Source: a virus
Length of the DNA: 25,243 nucleotides
Direction: 5' to 3' (one strand)
Virus record (IMG/VR): IMGVR_UViG_3300017758_000124
Location: 1 to 25,243 of that record
Shown here piece by piece: positions 1 to 24,513 of the stretch. Under the pieces are notes generated by a model that worked only from the letters and a program-made list of their open reading frames with translations, was not told where the DNA came from and ran no database searches. Numbering within the stretch: position 1 is the stretch's first letter; every line of letters begins with the position of its first letter. The position numbers were made by a program, and so were the translations under genes.

Positions 1-3000
1 CTGCTGCATATTTGTTTACATGGTAATATCGGTATTTACCATTAAGCATAAAACCTATAGTTTCCATACCTGCAGGTGGTGGTTCTACTTTACCTTTGTC
101 AATGTATTTAGCTTTTTGTACTGTTACATCTTTCCATGTTCCATACTTAACATAGCCTCCTTTAACCATACGGCCTTCATCAAACGTTTCAATCCAACTT
201 TTATTTTGTTGCATCCACAAAATTGAATCATGTATCATACGGTTACGTTTTAACTCACTCATCAACAACGCATCTTTTTGGATAGTTGCTAACAATGGGT
301 CTACAATGTCTGCCATTGTACCTGTAGTTTGTTTGCTAAATGATGCTGATGAAATATTAGAACCGCCTGATCTATTTAATCTTTCTAGTGCATATTCAAG
401 AACGTTAAATGTTATGTACTGTTCATTGTTTATAATTGAATCTAAAGTTTCTTTGTCAAACGCCTTACTTTCTCTAATTAATGGATGCACATATGTTTTA
501 CGCAATTCATAAAATTTAGTAGCAGCTTGATCTAGGATAGGATGTTCTTTAGCCATAAACTCATAGGCTTGTAGCGGTGTACGCTCACCTATAAACTCAT
601 TAGCAATAGCTTCACCTTCTTTGCCCATAGCTTTGATTTGCGCCCATAGACCCATAGGGTTTGCTTTACCCATACGTTGTTGTGATACAGCTAAGTTTCT
701 TAGCAACAACAATGTAGACAACATACTAGAATTATAGCCTGCTGCTTCTACTGGGTTTATAACTTTGGCAGTAACTGTTTCTACATACCTTTGCATACCC
801 GCATGTCGGTATCTATAATTTTCTAATCTTGAATTTAGATTTAATGTTTCTTTATCCATCCAACGGCTGTTACCAGTTTTATTTTTACCCCACATACCGT
901 TTTGACCACCAAAACGTCTATAAAACCAAGCCATTGTATCAAACACTTCAATAGCAATACCGTCAAATTTGTTTGGTTGCCATGCTCGTTCCATGCCTTC
1001 ATATATTTTAATTTTACTGTCTACAAACTTGTTAGATATACGCGTTACCATTGATGAATAACGTGCATCTGAACCTTGGTTTATTTCGTTTTGTGCTTTT
1101 TCGTATTGTGCTTTTACTTCAGGACGTTTGTACATATGGTAGTTAAACAACTGCCATGATTTAGGTGCATTAAGCATTGTCCATTTTGGGCGTAATAGAT
1201 AGGCCATCATAAAATCAGCCATCAACTCACGCGGATTATCTCTGTATGCTGTGTAATTAGGGTCAGCCTGTCTGTTAAATGGTTTCCACAATGCTGATAG
1301 TCTAATCAACTCTTGTGTAATTTCTTGCCTACTTACTAGCCCTCTTTCTCTAATTTCTGCCTCAAACTTACGTTTAAATATTTCTGCAGCTTGTTCACCC
1401 ATCTTAGCTTCAGCTTCAGATGTTGGTTTTTTACCATTTATACGGTCAACTAAAGATTTAATATGCGGGTCAATCATTCCACGCATAGCACTTTTAGTAA
1501 TTAATTTTTTTAGTTTGCCATCTAATTTTACAAACGCATCATAAAATTCTTTGTTTATTTTGTTTCTAATGTCTGGGTCACGGAAAATGTCTAAGATTTT
1601 TTCTGGCGTAATTGCTAGGTCTTCTTTGATTTCTTTGTCAATCTTAGGTTCTTTTGCTTGTGCTTCTTTTTCAGCAGCTTTTTTAAGTGCATTAATTTCT
1701 GCTTGGCTCAATGGTTTTGCACCGTCAGCTTTACCATCAATCCATTTATTCATGTACCCTTTTAGGGCAGCCATAGAACCTAGAATATTACCTTTCTTCA
1801 TAGTTTCTGCAGGCAGATAATCAATCAAATGCCCTATTTCGTGGGCAAGTGTCATAGTAAAATCTTTAGGGTTTTCTTGTAGTGCTTTGTTTACAGCTAC
1901 AGTTAACTCTTGTTTAGACATTTTTTGTGGTATGCCGTTAACTACTTTGCCGTATTGAAAATAACCACGCAAACCTGCCCTGTTCATACGTTCTGTAACA
2001 GGTAGTTTGTTAATTAGCACTTCTACTAATTCTACAAGATCAAAGGTGTCTAGCCCTTTGGCATTGTTATACAGTTTTTTGTATGATGCGTTTACAGGCA
2101 TTTCTGGCGGTGGCTCATTAGGTACACCCCAAGTGTCATCACCTTTACTGCTGTATACTTTTTCATCTGTACGGAATGTATTGTCTGTATCAGGAAATAC
2201 ACGGTCTTTTTTAGATATGTGTGTTTTGTAGTAGCTATTAGCTTGATGATCTAACGCGCCTGTAGCTTTTTCACCTCTAACTGCTGCAAGTATTTTACCT
2301 TTGTAAACTTGTAAATCTTTTTCTAAAACAACTAAAATGTTATCAATAACACCAAATTTAGTTTGTCCTGTTTCTATTTTTCCATCTTTTGTTGTGTATT
2401 TGTATGTTGTTAAATTTTCTACAACACTTCTAGGAAATACAATGTTTTGACCTTTGTTAGTACGGTATACAATACTATCAACTTTTACTTTACTAGGGCC
2501 ATTTTGTTTCACGTGAAACACCTCTTGCACCTTAGTAATAGCATCTTGCTTTGTAACTTCTTTAAAATTTTGTGTAATTACTTCGCTAGTATTTTTAAGT
2601 TGTACTTTTGGTTTTGTAAGATTTGTTTGTATAGTGTTTGCAATATCAGGCATTGCTTTGACATTTACAAATACATCAGGCGTACCAATAGTTTCATTAG
2701 ATTTAATTACTGTTTCCGTTTTAGATACAAGTCTAATGTCATTAGCTATTTTTTCAGGTATTTTTATACTTAATTTATCTTTAGCTATTTCAGCTTTTCT
2801 TGCGTTTACCTCAACAATATCTGTATTAAACTCACCTTTAGTTTGTTTTTCAGCAAAATTAGCTTCTACTTTTTCAGTAATTTCTATTTTGCCATCTTTT
2901 TTAACAGTAACTACTTCGTTAACTGATTCCATAGGTACACGTACATCTATCTCTTTGACATGTACTACATCACCATTATCAAGTTTTACTTCTAGTATTA

Positions 3001-5413
3001 CCTCACCGTTTATTTCCTGCCTGTTTAATACCGTACCTTCTTTTGAACCAGTTGGCTCAATAGCTACTTTTTCATTAGGTTTTACTTTAGATGGTTCAAC
3101 AATTTTAATACCTGCTTTTTCTTCAAGACCTGTAATAAATACTTCGTTAAGTTCTGCTAATGCCCTTGGTTCAATAATATCTGGGTCTAACATATCAGTT
3201 TTTACTTCAGCATTTTTTTCTGTCATTGTTTGCATATCACGTGGATGTATGCCGTATTTTTTGTAAATGTGATAAAGTTTGTTAATACCACCTGCTGCTT
3301 GATGTAATCCAAATATTAATACAGCAGCGTGTGCAAAGTCTTTTCTAGTAGGTACTTGGCCTTCCATAACAGATGACAATGTAACAAGTGTACCTACCTC
3401 ACCTGCCATTTGCATATAACGGTTACCACCTACTGATTTAATAGCTTTACCTGTACCGTATGTAGCTGCACCAACTGTTGTATATTTACCAAATGTTTTT
3501 AGCGATTGAACACGCATAATCTCATCTAGCAATTCATCAAAGCTGTTAACATCACCATTTAACAAAGCACGCATATACACATCACGTATTGTTTCAGGTA
3601 ATCCAAAAGACACACCTAAAGCTATAAATGGTGTAGCAGGCGCTGCTGCACCTCCTGTAACTGTTGTTAATCCAACACCCCCTACAAATCCTACTCCTAA
3701 ACCTACTCCCATTGCAGGTAAATCTGCTGTTAATGTTATAGCGCTTTGTATTATTTCTTGCGGAAAATTTTGTGCTTGGTGCATAAATATTTGTTCATAT
3801 GCTGTTTGTGGGTCAACACCATCTTCTGTAATAGATTTGTGGTATGCCTGTATAAGACCCATTGTGGACATAGAATATCCTGCACCAAATACATTTCGGT
3901 CACCTGCACCACCTGTAAGTTTTACAAACTTACGGCCTGCCCAACTATCTTTCATAAATTTAGTTATAGCCCAATCGTCTTCATCAGGCTTTAGTATGTC
4001 GCTACCCCATGTTGCTAGCATTGGTAGTTCATATTCATACTTTAGTGTATTCCATGACCCCATGTGTTGATTAACACGTTCATCAAAAGCAGCTTGATCT
4101 CTAGTGCCTTTTGTCAACAAATCCATTTCTGCGTTTAGGTCATCTAATTCATTTAAAAACATGTCCATTGATCTGTTTTCAAAATCGAGATTGACTACGC
4201 CTGTAGTGTCAGCACTAAAGTCTTGTATGCCAACATCTATATTTTTCATAGCTTCTTCTATTTCTAAACGTCTAGCTTCTATTTCAGCTATTCGTGCAGA
4301 ATTATCTACTGTTACTGCAGGGTTGTAATATTTTGTATATAACTCTGTAAGAGCATCTTTATCACCTCTAGCACCTTGCAGTACATATGCCTGTGCATCA
4401 GGGTTCATTAATATTTTTACTAATGCTAATGATCTTTGTGCATCTAAAGATAATTTAGTTGCATCTTTATGTTCGTATGCAGCTTCAAAAAATTTAGGCA
4501 TAACAAATTCAGGATTAGCTGCTTTTGCTATGTTTCCGTAATAATTAATTAGTTCTACTATTTCATCGTTTTTTATTTGAAATACACCACCTTTAGTACC
4601 TGCCTCATTTTGTATATTTTTGTTGCTAGATTCCATAGCACCTATAAATGATACAAATTCGTTTATAGTAGCTAAGTCATCATCTTCTAAATTTTGCGTA
4701 TTTTTTAAAGAATTAAGAACCAACATAGTTGATGGCCCAGTTGTAACTACTGTGTTAATTACTGGTAATTTTTCATCTTCCGTTGGTCTGTTAATTACTG
4801 TCATAGCAACACCATCCCTAATAGGTTTTTTACCATTACGGGCGTGTACTTTTCTTTCTGCGTCAGTTAATTGGTCACGATAAATTAAACCATTAGCTTT
4901 CATTTCTGCTTCAGTTTTTGCTAATGCAGCATTTTGATCAGCTATAGTTTTATAAAGTTGTTCGTTGTAATCAGGTGTCTTACCAAATGCTATAGAATCA
5001 GGATTATCTATAACCTGATCTACCATTGTAACTATATTAGATTGATCTACGTTAACAGTATCACCTTGTTTTATAGGCGATGTAGTTTCTTTAGTGTTTG
5101 AATTATTAACTTTAGTATCGTTTGTTGCTGTTGCGCTGTCTTCTTTTGCCCTTTTTTCTGCCCAAGTTGTGCTAACATCTTGCTCATTTGTTGCCGTAGT
5201 GCTTTCTGTATTAACAGGAATATTGTGAGTATTAAGGTCACTATCATGTAATGGATGTGGTGATGTACGTTCTATTCCGTAAAATTTATCAATTTGATTG
5301 TTAGAAAACCCTGCTTGTATAAGCAATGGTCTTTGGTCTTCAATATGACCAATGATTGTTTCATCATCAAAACCTGCTAATTTTAGTTGCGATGCTGTTA
5401 TTCCAACAGTCAT
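1..5413 (-). CDS. Very large internal virion (ejection) protein, gp16-like, with lytic transglycosylase-like and zinc metallopeptidase motifs; 3' end cut by window edge
   Basis: One reading frame runs unbroken from ATG at 5413 to the left edge, giving 1804 codons with no stop; the carboxyl end lies outside. The start is 3 nt after the stop of the gp15-like gene. Position after gp14- and gp15-like genes, and extreme size, fit the largest T7-type core protein (T7 gp16, about 1318 aa), which is ejected into the host. Near residue 261 the sequence GAMESS is followed 18 residues later by Q279 in GGVFQI; this E-x17-Q spacing is that of SLT-type lytic transglycosylases, with E261 as candidate catalytic acid. 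A Gly/Ala-rich hydrophobic stretch lies around residues 560-610. HEIGH at 1191-1195 is a zincin signature, and ELMAD at 1396-1400 could supply a third zinc ligand. Between them (about 620-1100) is a long charged Lys/Glu/Val-rich region. Role in virion is confident from context; both enzymatic activities are inferred from motifs. Confidence 0.85.
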   Translation of the reverse strand, partial: MTVGITASQLKLAGFDDETIIGHIEDQRPLLIQAGFSNNQIDKFYGIERTSPHPLHDSDLNTHNIPVNTESTTATNEQDVSTTWAEKRAKEDSATATNDTKVNNSNTKETTSPIKQGDTVNVDQSNIVTMVDQVIDNPDSIAFGKTPDYNEQLYKTIADQNAALAKTEAEMKANGLIYRDQLTDAERKVHARNGKKPIRDGVAMTVINRPTEDEKLPVINTVVTTGPSTMLVLNSLKNTQNLEDDDLATINEFVSFIGAMESSNKNIQNEAGTKGGVFQIKNDEIVELINYYGNIAKAANPEFVMPKFFEAAYEHKDATKLSLDAQRSLALVKILMNPDAQAYVLQGARGDKDALTELYTKYYNPAVTVDNSARIAEIEARRLEIEEAMKNIDVGIQDFSADTTGVVNLDFENRSMDMFLNELDDLNAEMDLLTKGTRDQAAFDERVNQHMGSWNTLKYEYELPMLATWGSDILKPDEDDWAITKFMKDSWAGRKFVKLTGGAGDRNVFGAGYSMSTMGLIQAYHKSITEDGVDPQTAYEQIFMHQAQNFPQEIIQSAITLTADLPAMGVGLGVGFVGGVGLTTVTGGAAAPATPFIALGVSFGLPETIRDVYMRALLNGDVNSFDELLDEIMRVQSLKTFGKYTTVGAATYGTGKAIKSVGGNRYMQMAGEVGTLVTLSSVMEGQVPTRKDFAHAAVLIFGLHQAAGGINKLYHIYKKYGIHPRDMQTMTEKNAEVKTDMLDPDIIEPRALAELNEVFITGLEEKAGIKIVEPSKVKPNEKVAIEPTGSKEGTVLNRQEINGEVILEVKLDNGDVVHVKEIDVRVPMESVNEVVTVKKDGKIEITEKVEANFAEKQTKGEFNTDIVEVNARKAEIAKDKLSIKIPEKIANDIRLVSKTETVIKSNETIGTPDVFVNVKAMPDIANTIQTNLTKPKVQLKNTSEVITQNFKEVTKQDAITKVQEVFHVKQNGPSKVKVDSIVYRTNKGQNIVFPRSVVENLTTYKYTTKDGKIETGQTKFGVIDNILVVLEKDLQVYKGKILAAVRGEKATGALDHQANSYYKTHISKKDRVFPDTDNTFRTDEKVYSSKGDDTWGVPNEPPPEMPVNASYKKLYNNAKGLDTFDLVELVEVLINKLPVTERMNRAGLRGYFQYGKVVNGIPQKMSKQELTVAVNKALQENPKDFTMTLAHEIGHLIDYLPAETMKKGNILGSMAALKGYMNKWIDGKADGAKPLSQAEINALKKAAEKEAQAKEPKIDKEIKEDLAITPEKILDIFRDPDIRNKINKEFYDAFVKLDGKLKKLITKSAMRGMIDPHIKSLVDRINGKKPTSEAEAKMGEQAAEIFKRKFEAEIRERGLVSRQEITQELIRLSALWKPFNRQADPNYTAYRDNPRELMADFMMAYLLRPKWTMLNAPKSWQLFNYHMYKRPEVKAQYEKAQNEINQGSDARYSSMVTRISNKFVDSKIKIYEGMERAWQPNKFDGIAIEVFDTMAWFYRRFGGQNGMWGKNKTGNSRWMDKETLNLNSRLENYRYRHAGMQRYVETVTAKVINPVEAAGYNSSMLSTLLLLRNLAVSQQRMGKANPMGLWAQIKAMGKEGEAIANEFIGERTPLQAYEFMAKEHPILDQAATKFYELRKTYVHPLIRESKAFDKETLDSIINNEQYITFNVLEYALERLNRSGGSNISSASFSKQTTGTMADIVDPLLATIQKDALLMSELKRNRMIHDSILWMQQNKSWIETFDEGRMVKGGYVKYGTWKDVTVQKAKYIDKGKVEPPPAGMETIGFMLNGKYRYYHVNKYAA
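2505..2520. promoter_or_regulatory. parS: Perfect parS centromere sequence (ParB-binding site)
   Basis: The sequence TGTTTCACGTGAAACA is a perfect 16-bp palindrome and is identical to the near-universal bacterial chromosomal parS consensus bound by ParB. It lies inside the gp16-like coding sequence, where it encodes VFHVK and neighbours. By base composition a chance match in 25 kb is expected about once in 100,000 windows. No ParA or ParB gene is present in this window, so a host ParB, or one encoded elsewhere on the phage, would be the reader. The identity is seen directly; occupancy by ParB is inferred. Confidence 0.8.
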
Positions 5414-22816: not shown

Positions 22817-23630
22817 ATCTATTCCATATATCTTTTACCTGAAACAATACTTCGTTGTGGTTTTCAGGTGGGTTACAAGCGTTTGCAAATTTTAAGGCTT
22901 CTTCATTTGCATATTCCATGCTTTCGCCACGCTTTCTAATTGCTATCAACATCTTTACCAATGCAGCATGCCTGTCACCCTTGCCTACACCATATCGTAA
23001 TGTACCTGAATACTTGCCTTGATACATTGATGGTTGATAATCTGTTTTGATTGTAGCTTGTTGTGGTCTTTGTAATCCAAGACCATCACGTATCTCTGCC
23101 ATTGTGTATGGTGTATCAATGCCCTGCGCACCAATTACTTTAATTGGATATGGTTTTGTTTTGTTATGATAAAACCCTGCAAGTCGCATTACTCTTGGCA
23201 AGTCTTTGACAACTGGGTCTGAATTAAACTTTGCAGCTAATGCTTGCTGATACAATGTAAATGATTCTAATGGCATATCACTTACTAACCAATAACAATG
23301 GTATTTATCAGGCGATGTGTTTAAAATAAAATTAGGTTTAAGATCAAAGTGATCGGGCAATGGTGTACCATCTAAATCTATAAACACAGCCCTAACTTTT
23401 GTAATATTTTTTGTGGTTCTGCCCTGTAAATCTGTCTGATTTACTGTAAAAAATACACCTGCACCCTGTTTGTTTAATGACCATAGTTCATCTATGTGTT
23501 CTTCCAATGTGCCATGTAACTGTCTAATTATTTTCCTGTTCTTACCCTTGTCACAAAACGTTTGGAAACTGTGATGTGTACCAAATGCTTGTATAAATAT
23601 GCCATGGTGACTATTTGGATTGTACTTCAT
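22806..23630 (-). CDS. AEP-type (RepB-like) DNA primase / replication protein
   Basis: A 274-residue protein from ATG 23630, which has GGGG upstream; an earlier in-frame start at 23669 lies deep within the previous gene. Residues 79-88 (VRAVFIDLDG) contain the D85-x-D87 pair of archaeo-eukaryotic primases. H111 in DKYHCYWLVS is the second motif, and LPRVMRLAGFYHNK (144-157) matches the carboxyl motif of RepB/plasmid-type primases. The end (GDRHAALVKMLIAIRKRGES, then EEALKFANACNPP) resembles a PriCT-type helical domain. It would synthesise primers for leading-strand initiation. Partner helicase and DUF1376 genes are adjacent and overlapping. Confidence 0.85.
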   Translation of the reverse strand: MKYNPNSHHGIFIQAFGTHHSFQTFCDKGKNRKIIRQLHGTLEEHIDELWSLNKQGAGVFFTVNQTDLQGRTTKNITKVRAVFIDLDGTPLPDHFDLKPNFILNTSPDKYHCYWLVSDMPLESFTLYQQALAAKFNSDPVVKDLPRVMRLAGFYHNKTKPYPIKVIGAQGIDTPYTMAEIRDGLGLQRPQQATIKTDYQPSMYQGKYSGTLRYGVGKGDRHAALVKMLIAIRKRGESMEYANEEALKFANACNPPENHNEVLFQVKDIWNRYAP

Positions 23631-24273: not shown

Positions 24274-24513
24274 TTATTGACCTACACCCTGCGGCTGCGG
24301 TGCAATTTCATCTGCGTGTTTTAGATCAGGACGTAAATAGTCTAATTCAAAATCACCAATATCTGCTATTTGATACGCACGCAAAGGCGGTATTACTTGC
24401 CATTTAGATACAGCAGGATGGCTTATATTAAGCATACGTGATAGGTTTCTACCACCATACTTAGTTACCACCTCTTTCTTACGTTCTTTTGCAAGTTCAT
24501 ATAAATTCATCAT
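24274..24513 (-). CDS. XRE-family regulator, Cro/YdaS-like
   Basis: A 79-residue DNA-binding protein. Residues 22-40 (RNLSRMLNISHPAVSKWQV) form a helix-turn-helix, with recognition helix SHPAVSKWQV. The following IPPLRAYQIAD and ELDYLRPDL are typical of the YdaS/Cro group, whose members end near this point with no dimerisation or cleavage domain. The end is a Gln/Pro-rich tail. ATG 24513 has AAGGGA upstream; a second ATG follows at once. The gene is divergent from the rightward early operon, and its own promoter is covered by operator copy 5, so autoregulation is likely. It is the best candidate in this window to bind all six operators. Confidence 0.85.
   Translation of the reverse strand: MMNLYELAKERKKEVVTKYGGRNLSRMLNISHPAVSKWQVIPPLRAYQIADIGDFELDYLRPDLKHADEIAPQPQGVGQ

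Follow-up and report, generated by a model that had tools for sequence, protein, structure and literature searches.

The DNA analysed here, referred to as the window (25,243 nt), is a fragment of a marine phage genome. Its TerL and capsid proteins are 77% and 79% identical, respectively, to those of Pelagibacter phage EXVC032P Baldr, the closest match. The TerL, capsid, portal and tail genes are homologous to those of Baldr/HTVC010P-type pelagiphages and occur in the same order. This kinship to isolates suggests that the host is alphaproteobacterial and Pelagibacter-like. A host search among genome contigs returned distant prophage-like matches and one contig from a Verrucomicrobia MAG, but no clear host. 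The MAG contig (assigned to "Verrucomicrobia bacterium TMED56", L395:5817-6674) codes for a capsid protein that is 76% identical to that of the window phage, and it is probably a mis-binned phage contig. No integrase was found in the window, in seven of its kin or in Baldr. Despite this, a small P22 Cro-like regulator (PF14549) is encoded at 24274-24513 (minus strand).

The window contains a perfect chromosomal-type parS site (16/16, zero mismatches), as described in the initial annotation. It is the sole exact copy in the whole record, and the window has no other perfect 16-bp palindrome. A second parS-like site (22831-22846) has three mismatches, which is chance level, and was discarded. The probability of a chance match, initially put at roughly 1 in 100,000, is of the right order. 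Exact parS matches are expected 1.0e-5 (independent bases) to 3.0e-5 (Markov order 2) times per window, and neither value corrects for the many further motifs and windows that might equally have attracted notice. The features at the locus are listed in Table 1.

Table 1. Features at the parS site of the window phage
Feature	Position	Strand	Remarks
parS palindrome TGTTTCACGTGAAACA	2505..2520	no strand	exact match; minus strand reads xTG TTT CAC GTG AAA CAx, V-F-H-V-K-Q
Rare-codon cluster AAG GTG CAA GAG GTG TTT CAC GTG	2508..2533	-	5 of 8 codons below 20% usage
Predicted beta strand KVQEVFHVK, residues 960-968 (approximately)	2507..2533	-	AlphaFold2 prediction; covers most of the site
Site-bearing gene P0001, at least 1804 aa	1..5413	-	truncated at the left end of the window; HExxH motif

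The palindrome is indeed embedded in coding sequence, namely in a minus-strand ORF that starts at 5413 and runs off the left end of the window. The site is read as GTG TTT CAC GTG AAA CAA, encoding V965-Q970. Just 11% of the Val codons in the window are GTG, and the probability of the site codons, given the peptide, is 0.003. The overlapping rare-codon cluster belongs to the 0.3% tail among 6106 eight-codon windows. A part of this cluster (GTG CAA GAG GTG TTT CAC) is also present in a clade of relatives with ca. 80% identity.

The counterpart of P0001 in Baldr is a 6,990-nt gene, and tblastn spans 100% of its length. P0001 has zero family matches in PHROG, and only one sub-threshold match, with nothing above the cut-off, in Pfam. 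Its initial designation as a virion-protein gene thus gains nothing from family assignment. The position after the tail genes, the Baldr counterpart and the HExxH motif nevertheless make an internal virion protein probable. AlphaFold2, run on residues 860-1080, predicted a beta strand at segment residues 101-109, with a pLDDT of about 75 in the strand block and an overall mean of just 57. On this model, P0001 is probably structured at the site, whereas in many other phages parS falls in linkers.

The ParB_N domain was found neither in the window nor in 16 related contigs, five of which are 37-38 kb long. This bears out the initial statement that no parB is present in the window and extends it to the relatives. 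A phage-encoded ParABS partition system was rejected on these grounds.

Conservation of the site among close relatives

The three closest kin (94% identical) encode the same peptide at the site. They carry a silent change (CAC to CAT), resulting in TGTTTCATGTGAAACA. In the 80% clade, TGTTTCACGTGACACG is found in three relatives and TGTTTCACGTAACACG in one, the best match to parS being 14/16; one member has a silent GTG to GTA change within the site. Nothing resembling parS occurs at this position in more distant kin, and a search of Baldr and 11 related isolates of pelagiphages gave no site within 2 mismatches. A second scan for relatives covering the site yielded zero new contigs. A V-[FY]-x-V motif is common to the distant kin, so part of the site sequence can be attributed to protein constraint.

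Comparison of the site with the rest of the gene had been proposed as a check, and it shows no excess over background. In the closest kin, 78-80% of the same-phase 16-mers of the gene equal or exceed the site in conservation; for the 80% clade the figure is 46-68%. Conservation of the 16-mer is gene background, no better than elsewhere in the gene, and synonymous-site conservation was dropped as proof of function. The initial annotation also held that relatives encoding VFHVK with freely varying codons and lacking the palindrome would speak against a role of the site. Such variation is partly seen in the kin, and its weight is reduced by the natural use of the CAT form as parS in chromosomes (see below).

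The main rival of a functional parS is coincidence: the codons of a V-F-H-V-K beta strand happen to spell parS, and nothing acts on the site. The background-level conservation, the silent changes in the kin, the lack of the site in related isolates and the protein motif shared with distant kin all fit this explanation. Furthermore, windows picked for striking features invite chance matches. On evidence from the phage's own family alone, coincidence would be a fair verdict, with the unusual codons and the rare-codon cluster counting slightly against it.

Distribution and alleles of parS in phages and chromosomes

TGTTTCACGTGAAACA is the chromosomal centromere word of Alphaproteobacteria. It was found in 100 of 142 genomes, while a reversed-pattern control occurs in none of the 142. 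Exact parS is also present in at least 120 stretches of viral contigs, whereas two palindromes of similar composition, used as controls, gave 1 and 5. An 18-mer consisting of parS and the window's own flanking bases has at least 119 viral matches and the corresponding 20-mer 13; the window's flank is uncommon among the exact-parS matches listed (7 of 120). Scaling from the 18-mer and 20-mer counts, we estimate that the viral collection holds about 3,000 exact parS sites, a number that may be off two-fold or more. Chance predicts only a few in the whole collection, which counts against coincidence. In ParB-less phages, exact parS is about thousand-fold above chance.

The contigs bearing parS have the character of phages. 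The longest ORFs of 62 such contigs most commonly match portal, head-tail adaptor, terminase and capsid families. ParB_N scored above the cut-off in only one of 50 contigs, and ParB box-II and ParA P-loop motifs were not found in the flanks of the 120 listed parS loci. Contamination by bacterial chromosomes was rejected as the source, given that the family-matching longest genes are mostly phage portal, terminase or capsid genes and that ParB_N is so scarce. An integrase is encoded on 8 of 45 contigs. Among the matches listed, 43% of the exact phage sites are intergenic, compared with 7.5% of random positions (p = 1.6e-26). A parS variant, TGTTTCACGTGGAACA, was seen 14 times in parS-bearing loci. 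Three phage contigs (L340, L017 and L044) have five exact parS sites each.

The form present in the closest kin, TGTTTCATGTGAAACA, with a CATGTG core, is likewise found in viral contigs, in at least about 120 stretches, and 45% of the matches listed are intergenic. Inside phage genes it mainly reads VSHET or VSCET. The two forms interchange at homologous positions in three pairs of contigs (L166/L099, L249/L112 and L259/L054). The CATGTG form occurs in 11 of 142 alphaproteobacterial chromosomes. All seven loci that were inspected correspond to the mnmG-rsmG-parA-parB locus, and Pfam analysis of example loci confirmed ParB, ParA, GidB and GidA. Three small genomes of 1.1-1.4 Mb (G160, G161 and G165) have zero exact parS sites and carry two, two and seven CATGTG copies, respectively. 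At L405-L410 and L412, TGTTTCATGTGAAACA adjoins mnmG, rsmG, parA and parB, and some of these genomes are devoid of exact parS. Copies of TGTTTCATGTGAAACA located within rsmG can give the protein an N-terminal MFHMKH or VSCET. As the CATGTG form lies beside parAB in alphaproteobacterial chromosomes, the single change in the closest kin appears to convert one natural parS into another. This counts against coincidence, as does the low probability of the codons given the peptide. For the ParB of P. aeruginosa, integrity of the CACGTG core is important, and binding persists at sites that have one perfect arm (PMC4368675).

A 16-bp palindrome alone does not name its binder, and a host or phage protein other than ParB might be the one that recognises it. 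We consider this very unlikely, because the sequences seen together with the site, or in its place, are themselves parS variants (TGTTTCACGTGGAACA and the CATGTG form, the latter beside chromosomal parAB).

Within long phage genes, parS mostly reads VSRET, often with off-usage codons and frequently in low-complexity stretches or linkers. The window site differs, being read in the FHVK frame in a beta strand predicted with modest confidence; its flanks, unlike those of other phage parS sites, are also not enriched in T. These differences favour coincidence for the window site. On the other hand, internal FHVK-frame matches in long genes are rare in our samples, which is not what coincidence leads one to expect. 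The closest analogue of the in-gene site is found in a terminase gene (L289:9038-10426, minus strand), where exact parS is read KVFHVKQ.

In a family of 30 contigs (L268-L375, e.g., L274:4279-6501), GTT TCA CGT GAA ACA (VSRET) is invariant in a gene for a protein of ca. 745 aa, although GC3 is 78-91% and amino-acid identity goes down to 44%. This family was ascertained by an exact 18-mer and is thus biased upward, so its conservation provides support but is not an unbiased test. The protein has no PHROG match, and the family has no match in the phage isolate collection.

In a group of marine phages (L101, L119, L097, L120, L027, L042, L093 and L066), exact parS is located immediately upstream of terL. 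Pelagibacter phage HTVC027P, an isolate related to this group, carries a 15/16 site, CGTTTCACGTGAAACA, at another location, in an intergenic gap (L401:15903). In podoviruses related to the window phage (capsid/portal about 23-33%), parS is found in the portal gene, near it, or in a gene between portal and capsid. Overall, phage parS positions are scattered, occurring before terL and in genes for portal, scaffold, polymerase and giant proteins, on both strands. Local silencing of late genes, by which ParB spreading from the site would repress or time them as from a silencer or operator, had been suggested initially and draws on the silencing of promoters near parS by excess ParB (PMC4368675, PMC7022226) and on the grouping of P0001 with other structural genes, but we regard it as the least probable explanation of all because phage parS positions and strands vary so much, the site is ca. 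2.9 kb inside the gene, and it is not kept in the kin.

Interpretation and comparison with known systems

We favour, with a probability of about 0.58, the interpretation that the window phage carries a functional host-type parS which, in a phage devoid of ParB, would load host ParB and confer a benefit independent of its position. Coincidence, although we do not think it probable, is a serious possibility for this site. The initial proposal that the phage recruits host ParB through a host centromere thus stands with respect to the perfect site, the ParB-less phage, the chromosomal word in alphaproteobacterial genomes and the wide excess among phages; synonymous conservation at the locus did not bear it out. 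The evidence for the wider phenomenon is much stronger than that for the window site, and the carriage of host centromeres by phages in general is strongly supported.

Judging from sequence, the phage parS may be recognised by host ParB, which would then form a closed CTP clamp, load, and spread over the phage DNA. Bound ParB, together with its partners SMC and ParA, could then compact the phage genome or place it in the cell. Alternatively, the phage parS could serve as a decoy that draws limited ParB off the chromosome. ParB binding at the window site and all such downstream effects are what we infer from the site. A benefit that is genome-wide rather than local is most likely, since phage parS sites occupy so many unrelated positions. 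A decoy role is plausible because extra-chromosomal parS can harm the host, as in Caulobacter, which does not survive a plasmid bearing two strong parS sites (PMC5815017). Positioning or SMC-mediated compaction is no less plausible. It is tempting to generalize that thousands of ParB-less phages, including that of the window, carry parS sites which track the allele of the host (CACGTG or CATGTG), accommodate them in genes via VSRET, VSHET or FHVK, and use them to capture host ParB during infection. We consider the chances of this generalization to be evenly balanced.

To our knowledge, there is no known case of a phage borrowing the centromere of its host. No description of ParB-less phages with a host parS was found in an open-access library. 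Loading of host ParB on phage genomes, if it takes place, would link infection to chromosome segregation, SMC loading and the control of the division site. It would also account for the retention of a short DNA word in phage genes that are otherwise unrelated, and the parS allele might help to link phages of unknown host to their hosts.

The window phage resembles pelagiphages of the Baldr/HTVC010P type in phage type and in having a homologous giant gene, but differs from Baldr and the 11 other related isolates by its parS site. That site is identical over 16 bp to the chromosomal parS of ParB/Spo0J. It differs in being present on a ParB-less phage, inside a protein-coding gene, as a single copy, and far from a parAB operon. 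A centromere on a phage genome is also a feature of phage-plasmids such as P1, N15 and cluster A mycobacteriophages, which encode their own ParABS. The window phage differs from these in that its site is of the host-chromosomal type and that searches of the window and its kin gave neither a ParB of its own nor an integrase. The Staphylococcus phage Lacachita group codes for ParB without ParA, whereas the window phage has the site without ParB (PMC10286716). Both carry a partial ParABS on a phage genome, with possible reliance on host components.
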